From NCBI GenBank assembly GCA_016188825.1, contig JACPHA010000003.1, positions 1 through 32,638 on the forward strand: a DNA stretch of 32,638 bases, read 5' to 3'. Shown here in pieces: positions 3,469 through 25,030 of this stretch (position 1 is its first letter; each line of letters starts with the position of its first letter). The stretch is from Candidatus Pacearchaeota archaeon (GTDB lineage: Archaea; Nanobdellota; Nanobdellia; Pacearchaeales; GW2011-AR1). The notes under the pieces were generated by a model that did not search any database, had not been told where the DNA came from, and worked only from the letters and a program-made list of their open reading frames with translations. The position numbers and the translations under genes are program-made.

Positions 3469-3515
3469 TATAGACAATTTGTAAAATAGTAACCCAATCA
3501 AGCAAATTGTCTATA
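3469..3515. repeat. Single-unit hairpin element with TATAG...CTATA ends
   Basis: Perfect 13-bp inverted repeat TATAGACAATTTG (3469-3481) and CAAATTGTCTATA (3503-3515), separated by 21 nt. It stands in a gene-free stretch between the LamG gene and a broken NYN gene. Stem length, loop length and ends match the hairpin units at 3937-4026 and 25031-25119, although the loop sequence differs. I take it as the minimal one-unit member of a family of small structured elements. A bidirectional terminator is possible, but no gene ends next to it. Confidence 0.6.
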
Positions 3516-3715: not shown

Positions 3716-3794
3716 AATATTCTATTTATTTCCTTCTAACTCATTTACCAATCTACACCGACGACAATTTATTACATCAACAATATTAAAATAA

Positions 3795-4108
3795 GTGATT
3801 AATGCATTAACGAACCAGATTGTTTATATTTATAGACGATAAAATAGTGAAAAATATGTGCAAGCAATTAAAATGCGAACTTTAATAAAATCAATATAAA
3901 GATAGTTATCTTACATCGGGGATTTATCGAAGTTATGGACAATTGCATTGCTTATGTGACATTTATTTGCAATTGTACAGACAGAGAATTGCAAAAAACA
4001 GGAGACATATCCTATGCAATTCTCTGTATTTACTAATTATTGAAATGAGTTGAATAGTTTTATAATCTCTTTAAAGAGGCAGTTTAGTTCGGAATTGACC
4101 TAGTCACC
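3795..4108 (+). mobile_element. MITE copy A (314 bp with nested insert), 8-bp target duplication
   Basis: Non-coding element about 95% identical to the reverse complement of 24649-24962. It begins GTGATTAATGC and ends TAGTCACC, imperfect forms of the inverted ends GGTGATTAG...CTAATCACC seen in copy B. It is flanked by the direct repeat TAAAATAA (3787-3794 and 4109-4116), a perfect 8-bp target-site duplication. It carries the palindrome CTCTTTAAAGAG near its right end and no reading frame. A 90-bp double-hairpin element is nested at 3937-4026; without that insert and one TAT the element is 221 bp. An 8-bp duplication suggests cross-mobilisation by a DDE transposase from a family making 8-bp duplications (IS66, IS256 or IS1595 types do); no such gene is visible here. 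Confidence 0.85.
3937..4026 (+). mobile_element. Nested 90-bp double-hairpin mini-element, copy A
   Basis: Runs from GGACAATTGC to AATTCTCTG with TAT on each side (3934-3936, 4027-4029). Two hairpins: ACAATTGCA/TGCAATTGT (3939-3947, 3968-3976; loop 20) and ACAGAGAATTGCA/TGCAATTCTCTGT (3981-3993, 4015-4027; loop 21). Only two bases differ from the copy at 24763-24852. Copy B of the MITE has the uninterrupted sequence at this spot (CGACGTTAT directly joined to TTACTAATT), so this unit inserted here by itself. It may carry a TAT duplication, or it may have inserted 3' of TAT without duplication, as IS200/IS605-type elements do. Paired subterminal hairpins favour the latter, but this is unproven. 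Confidence 0.8.
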
Positions 4109-4239
4109 TAAAATAATTCATTAAGAAAACATGTTTATTTTTTGGATATTCTTTTACAATTCGTGTCATGATAACTTGACAGTATCAACAAACCGAAGGT
4201 TTTTTAAAGTAGAGGATTATTATAATATTAATAACTTTC

Positions 4240-24424: not shown

Positions 24425-24648
24425 TTTGCCCCTTTTTATTATTAATATTTAAACAAAAATAGTTTATATTTCTTTTCCTTTTTTGAATTATATTGGTATA
24501 AAACAAACGGTTCAACTTAAATAAAAAATCGGTATTCTTAATCAAGACAAAATAGAGGACGATATTACAAATGTTATGGAATATTAATTATCTACTAATG
24601 TGCTCCGTCATGAATTTTTTCTATTTCTTCCAATTCGTATAAAGATTA

Positions 24649-24962
24649 GGTGATTAGGTCAATCCCGGACTAAACTGCCTCTTTAAAGAGATTATAAAAC
24701 TATTCAACCCATTTCAATAATTAGTAAATAACGTCGATAAATCCCCGATGTAAGATAACTATGGACAATTGCATTACTTATGTGACATTTATTTGCAATT
24801 GTACAGACAGAGAATTGCAAAAAACATGAGACATATCCTATGCAATTCTCTGTATCTTTATATTGATTTTATTAAAGTTCGCATTTTAATTGCTTGACAT
24901 ATTTTTCACTATTTTATCGTCTATAAATATAAAAAATCTGGTCAGTTAATGCACTAATCACC
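24649..24962 (-). mobile_element. MITE copy B (314 bp with nested insert), 8-bp target duplication
   Basis: Inverted copy of 3795-4108. Ends are GGTGATTAG and CTAATCACC, a perfect 9-bp inverted repeat. Direct repeats AAAGATTA at 24641-24648 and 24963-24970 are the 8-bp target duplication. The nested 90-bp element lies at 24763-24852, in the same plus-strand orientation as in copy A although the host element is inverted, and on the other side of the 32-bp segment containing CATCGGGGATTTATCG. The 698-bp gap 24425-25122 contains nothing else except the twin hairpin at 25031-25119. Confidence 0.88.
24763..24852 (+). mobile_element. Nested 90-bp double-hairpin mini-element, copy B
   Basis: Same length and ends as 3937-4026, two base differences (GCATTAC for GCATTGC; CATGAG for CAGGAG). 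Flanked by TAT at 24760-24762 and 24853-24855. Copy A of the MITE shows the joined empty site here (AAAGATA directly followed by GTTATC). Arms: 24765-24773 with 24794-24802, and 24807-24819 with 24841-24853. Confidence 0.8.
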
Positions 24963-25030
24963 AAAGATTATTATAATTTGAGCTGTAAAGTTAGCAACAC
25001 CTTTTTTGATTAAATATTATTCATTAATTA

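Follow-up and report, generated by a model that had tools for sequence, protein, structure and literature searches.

Mini-elements nested in an IS1595-type MITE

The window analysed here comprises 32,638 nucleotides from a Candidatus Pacearchaeota archaeon (positions 1 to 32,638 of contig JACPHA010000003.1, assembly GCA_016188825.1) and contains two copies of a MITE, each of which carries a smaller element. Host MITE A occupies 3795–4108 on the forward strand, with an 8-bp target-site duplication (TAAAATAA) at 3787–3794 and 4109–4116, and measures 221 bp once its insert is discounted. Host MITE B occupies 24649–24962 on the reverse strand, between copies of AAAGATTA at 24641–24648 and 24963–24970. 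The genome holds two further full copies (C8:16438–16657 and C19:95258–95479) and a degenerate one at C8:32336. All four full copies are bordered by 8-bp AT-rich duplications (TAAAATAA, AAAGATTA, TTATTTTA and TTTTTCTA). In a congener, the terminal 31 bp of the host MITE adjoin an IS1595-family transposase fragment (L100), which identifies it as an IS1595-type MITE.

Copy A of the mini-element extends from 3936 to 4026 on the forward strand, 91 bp that begin with T and end in CTG, its limits being set by the empty host MITEs and the differing flanks of 13 full-length copies. Flanks and empty sites likewise define the duplicated target TA on its left (3934–3935) and right (4027–4028). Copy B, also 91 bp long and on the forward strand, lies at 24762–24852 with TA at 24760–24761 and 24853–24854; both copies are very probably of the IS630 type, as set out below. 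The initial annotation had reported the two inserts at these places, about 32 bp apart in the host MITE and in opposite relative orientation. We confirm these assignments, with 98% identity between the copies over 96 nt. The length of 90 bp that it gave needs correction: the mobile unit is real, but its true size is 91 bp, the extra base being on the left. As it had also stated, MITE A is empty at B's insertion point and MITE B at A's. The two further full host MITEs lack the insert at both points, as does the degenerate copy, although a deletion affects the region of B's point in the latter. Once the insert and one TA are taken out, host MITEs A and B align end to end over 221 bp with few differences. 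Across the five host-MITE copies compared, A's and B's insertion points are empty in all others, so the inserts represent two separate insertions into already dispersed MITEs, which bears out the earlier proposal that the unit moved on its own after the larger MITEs had spread. Comparison with the empty sites gives a net gain of 93 bp per insertion, corresponding to the 91-bp element and one duplicated TA.

With the 90-bp unit as the query, 17 places were matched in the 1.0-Mb genome. Thirteen of them, on seven contigs, are full-length (92–100% identity), and a covariance model finds 35 distinct places in the same genome (E ≤ 0.001). Only two of the full-length copies lie inside the host MITE, and since most copies are elsewhere, the mini-element cannot be a feature confined to this MITE, the outcome that, according to the initial annotation, would have refuted its proposal. 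All 13 copies have the borders TAT/GG...CTG/TA, the flanks beyond are unrelated, and the position next to the right TA is occupied by A in eight copies, by T in four and by G in one. From the absence of shared flanking sequence and the variability at this position, it follows that the target is TA and that the T preceding GG and the final CTG are the two ends of the element. The 3-bp TAT duplication considered earlier is rejected on the same grounds, the left T being the element's own end. TA is present on both sides in 43 of 44 copies inspected in 20 genomes, as aligned to a model that includes the TA columns. The positions of the mini-element are mostly intergenic.

Two adjacent hairpins and their conservation

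The mini-element folds into two adjacent hairpins, defined by folding and by compensatory changes. Hairpin 1 spans 3936–3979 (arms 3936–3946 and 3969–3979) and hairpin 2 spans 3981–4027 (arms 3981–3992 and 4016–4027), both on the forward strand. The left terminal inverted repeat (3936–3961, forward) and the right one (4001–4026, reverse) reach inwards so that their inner parts form the loops of hairpins 1 and 2, respectively. This arrangement is highly non-random (z = −5.4 as DNA and −4.9 as RNA), with none of 200 shuffles equally stable. Among 11 aligned members, seven pairs are altered on both sides, compared with 3.0 expected in shuffles, and this signal collapses once the pairing partners are slid. 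In 28 non-redundant members, the arms pair within the two hairpins at 91% and 95% of positions and at 75% and 67% in the end-to-end and inner cross pairings; fitting to the covariance model biases this alignment somewhat towards the structure, yet the outer arms lie at fixed distances from the ends. With 91–95% pairing within the hairpins and 67–75% across them, we rejected the end-to-end stem of a classical MITE as the predominant fold, and likewise the single long hairpin of an inverted REP pair that characterizes REPIN/RAYT systems.

Behind each end, at a nearly fixed distance, its outer 11–12 bases recur as an inverted copy. This produces the two hairpins and gives the mini-element four copies of the terminal core in all. 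The inverted core copy mostly matches at 8–9 of 9 bases near position 35 in mini-elements, whereas in full-length IS630 ends the best matches are only 5–7 of 9 and their places are scattered. Inheritance of the hairpins from the full-length IS, whose ends lack an inverted core copy, was rejected. The distal stem bases may differ between hairpins 1 and 2 while each hairpin remains self-complementary, so identity of binding sites alone is insufficient to explain the hairpins. A solitary single-hairpin relative lies at 3469–3515, 47 bp long including both TA dinucleotides and with perfect IS630-type ends (TATAGACAATTTG). It is the sole TATAGA-ended solo hairpin that a pattern search found in this genome, and the search detected none with TATGGA ends. 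This single hairpin may be an ancestral or a reduced form.

Covariance-model matches occur in 20 of the 275 genomes searched, in about 17 genera, over which the double-hairpin shape is kept with compensatory changes. Two genomes considered below, G032 and G029, are Candidatus Pacearchaeota from the same family. Together with the archaeal genes in the window, these relatives put the source genome in or near Pacearchaeota. A pattern search found no viral contigs with the mini-element. Several individual copies have particular settings. One (L010, 2499–2593) lies 13 bp beyond the stop of a HepT-like gene, a member of a nucleotidyltransferase/HepT-type pair, and is directly followed by a degenerate single hairpin. 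Another (L017, 2498–2592) sits in a narrow gap, 3 bp from an S8e ribosomal protein gene on one side and 5 bp from a convergent open reading frame on the other, a position in which its hairpin could serve as a terminator. In a third (L042, 1501–1575), the loop of hairpin 2 has only 3 nt, which indicates that loop 2 tolerates changes in length. On several contigs of genome G186, several copies lie within about 150 bp of contig ends, and the family therefore probably breaks MAG assemblies.

Ends shared with full-length IS630 elements

We built a terminal profile of 28 positions, TA included, from the ends of mini-elements only. An alignment of three complete transposases served to scan named genomes and yielded 15 transposase loci in Pacearchaeota, Woesearchaeota, Nanoarchaeota, a Micrarchaeota and a Hadarchaeum. 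The transposases pass the NCBIfam IS630 model with E values of 1e-63 to 3e-69. In 14 of the 14 full-length IS630 elements examined (about 1.1 kb), those for which both ends were available, the best forward and reverse matches of the profile fall on the element's TA-flanked termini, usually 57–75 bp before the transposase gene and 38–39 bp after it (98 in one). At L136 the right end is 1.2 kb away, and L139 gave only a partial match. The termini score 11.0 to 30.5. Across 75,620 control positions in Y1 loci the highest score is 11.9, a value that two weak IS630 ends do not exceed. Other DDE_3 loci and IS630 subtypes mostly show nothing comparable, the exception being L095, which has the same kind of end. 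In the stretches sampled by both searches, most inverted end pairs measure either about 95 bp or about 1.1 kb, a distribution that is indicative only.

The correspondence extends to sequence variants. The cores AATTGC, AACTGC and AATTCTG are common to mini-elements and full-length IS, and in G032 the resident IS630 has ends that agree with a mini-element whose core, AACTGACTT, is unusual; the start of this mini-element, TATGGACAACTGACTTGATTATATGG, corresponds to the IS end TATAGATAACTGACTTAATTGTGTGA. Because a profile derived from the mini-element finds both ends of full-length IS630 elements, we conclude that the unit is, with high probability, a non-autonomous mini-transposon of the IS630 (IS630-Tc1-mariner) family, 91 bp long and presumably moved in trans. 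It has no transposase gene, is multicopy (13 near-identical and 35 model-detected copies) and duplicates its TA target on insertion, as seen from empty sites and flanks. All the defining features of an IS630-family MITE that were tested are present, except that no partner was found in its own assembly.

IS630 DDE_3 genes are rare, occurring in 16 of 254 genomes, and are concentrated in bearers of the mini-element (7 of 20, versus 9 of about 234 genomes without it; Fisher p = 5e-5, an approximate value because the two genome sets differ slightly). The autonomous partner occurs in the same genome in G029 and G032, and as a contig-end fragment in G180. Two observations count against an IS630 MITE. 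No IS630 transposase of this group was found in the 83%-complete assembly of the element's own genome, nor in the incomplete assembly of its congener G009, which also carries many copies of the mini-element. In addition, the left and right terminal bases of the mini-element differ (TGGA versus CAGA or TAGA), and full-length IS630 ends mostly have TAGA on both sides. In relatives, IS630 copies are often at contig ends (G029 and G180), as expected of repeats in metagenome assemblies.

Alternative origins, movement and related systems

The initial annotation had noted a resemblance to IS200/IS605-derived elements. A PATE-like element of this kind, or a REP/REPIN unit, on whose single-stranded hairpins a Y1 transposase would act, is very unlikely here, even though it would account for two terminal hairpins and for asymmetric ends. 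A TA target and an element ending in TA formally fit insertion 3′ of TA without duplication, and Y1 genes are present in the organism's own genome and enriched in bearers (13/20 versus 67/234). However, no Y1 match was obtained in several bearers with multiple copies, G035 among them. A PATE would have a specific target of 4–5 nt 5′ of its left end, without duplication, but only the two bases TA are constant at that position, and the site fits a simple TA duplication. The hairpins begin at the very ends and leave no room for guide sequences, and the end profiles match IS630 termini precisely and not Y1 loci: in the 12 best Y1 loci, none of them from the element's own genome, there was no profile match comparable to the IS630 ends. 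The resemblance therefore does not hold.

It is equally improbable that the unit is, instead of a transposon, a structured RNA or protein-binding site encoded by the host and spread by recombination. The strong compensatory changes in both hairpins and the mostly intergenic copies would suit such a function, but not the clean empty sites, the TA duplication, the IS630 ends or the patchy occurrence in 20 of 275 genomes; the only Rfam match in the window is one tRNA. The assembly is a fragmented MAG, so the difference between MITEs A and B might in principle reflect a rearrangement during assembly, but the chance of this is negligible: besides A and B there are 11 more full-length copies of the mini-element, on several contigs and between unrelated flanks, and another two complete host MITEs are empty.

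For the IS630 mini-transposon, mobilization in trans by an IS630 transposase is the most likely route, because the chemistry of the family is established for ISY100, in which 30 bp of each end suffice, the TA target is duplicated and transposition is by cut and paste (PMC2170065). The transposase would bind both ends of the mini-element, cut it out and join it to a TA, with host repair filling in the TA duplication. The transposase gene may now lie outside the assembled 83% of the genome or have been lost. In the reading we prefer, which is also the weakest step of the scheme, the compact form would have been kept since it transposes well with one transposase family. The hairpins could provide extra transposase sites or cruciforms that aid movement, or the folded transcript could have a role. 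Template switching during the correction of quasi-palindromes can keep stems perfect without selection, and repair of these near-palindromes might likewise have preserved the hairpins. We advance only tentatively, as somewhat less probable than its negation, the idea that selection has made the double hairpin a transmissible design. Mini-elements whose four copies of the terminal core keep a fixed spacing would then track the changing specificity of IS630 transposases across DPANN archaea, through higher transposition (extra binding sites or single-strand cruciforms) or a folded RNA, and might descend from an ancestor with one hairpin of 47 bp, resembling the copy at 3469–3515.

These observations define a widespread IS630 mini-transposon family in the reduced genomes of DPANN archaea, in which mini-elements change in step with transposase end sequences, and they raise the question of why two side-by-side hairpins have been kept for so long in a mini-transposon. 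The clean nesting of an IS630 MITE inside an IS1595 MITE, twice, provides natural empty sites. The archaeal MITEs listed in a 2024 review come from Sulfolobus, haloarchaea and a few others (PMC10969869), and we found no description of MITEs from DPANN lineages in the literature searched. IS630 MITEs themselves are already known, and the part that appears to be new is a double-hairpin design conserved across genera.

By analogy, the mini-element would work like RUP and fold like CIR. RUP of Streptococcus pneumoniae (107 bp, linked to IS630-Spn1) is likewise about 100 bp and gene-less, with a TA target, IS630-like terminal repeats and a frequent location inside other mobile elements, but it is bacterial and restricted to a single lineage, and two adjacent hairpins with four cores are not described there (PMC2229807). 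The Correia/NEMIS elements of Neisseria (about 107–155 bp) share terminal TA, many copies and structured transcripts, but form a 5′–3′ end-to-end stem, and no autonomous partner is named there (PMC2229807). The CIR elements of Caulobacter and Brucella have terminal TA and two hairpin arms connected by a linker; they differ in carrying a GANTC motif, and neither a terminal inverted repeat nor a transposase partner is given there (PMC2229807). ISY100 and the IS630/Tc1/mariner elements share the TA target and its duplication and the short imperfect terminal repeats, and encode a DDE transposase (PMC2170065). Unlike the mini-element, they are autonomous, and in the archaeal IS630 ends that we examined there are no internal inverted core copies such as those that build the two hairpins of the mini-element.
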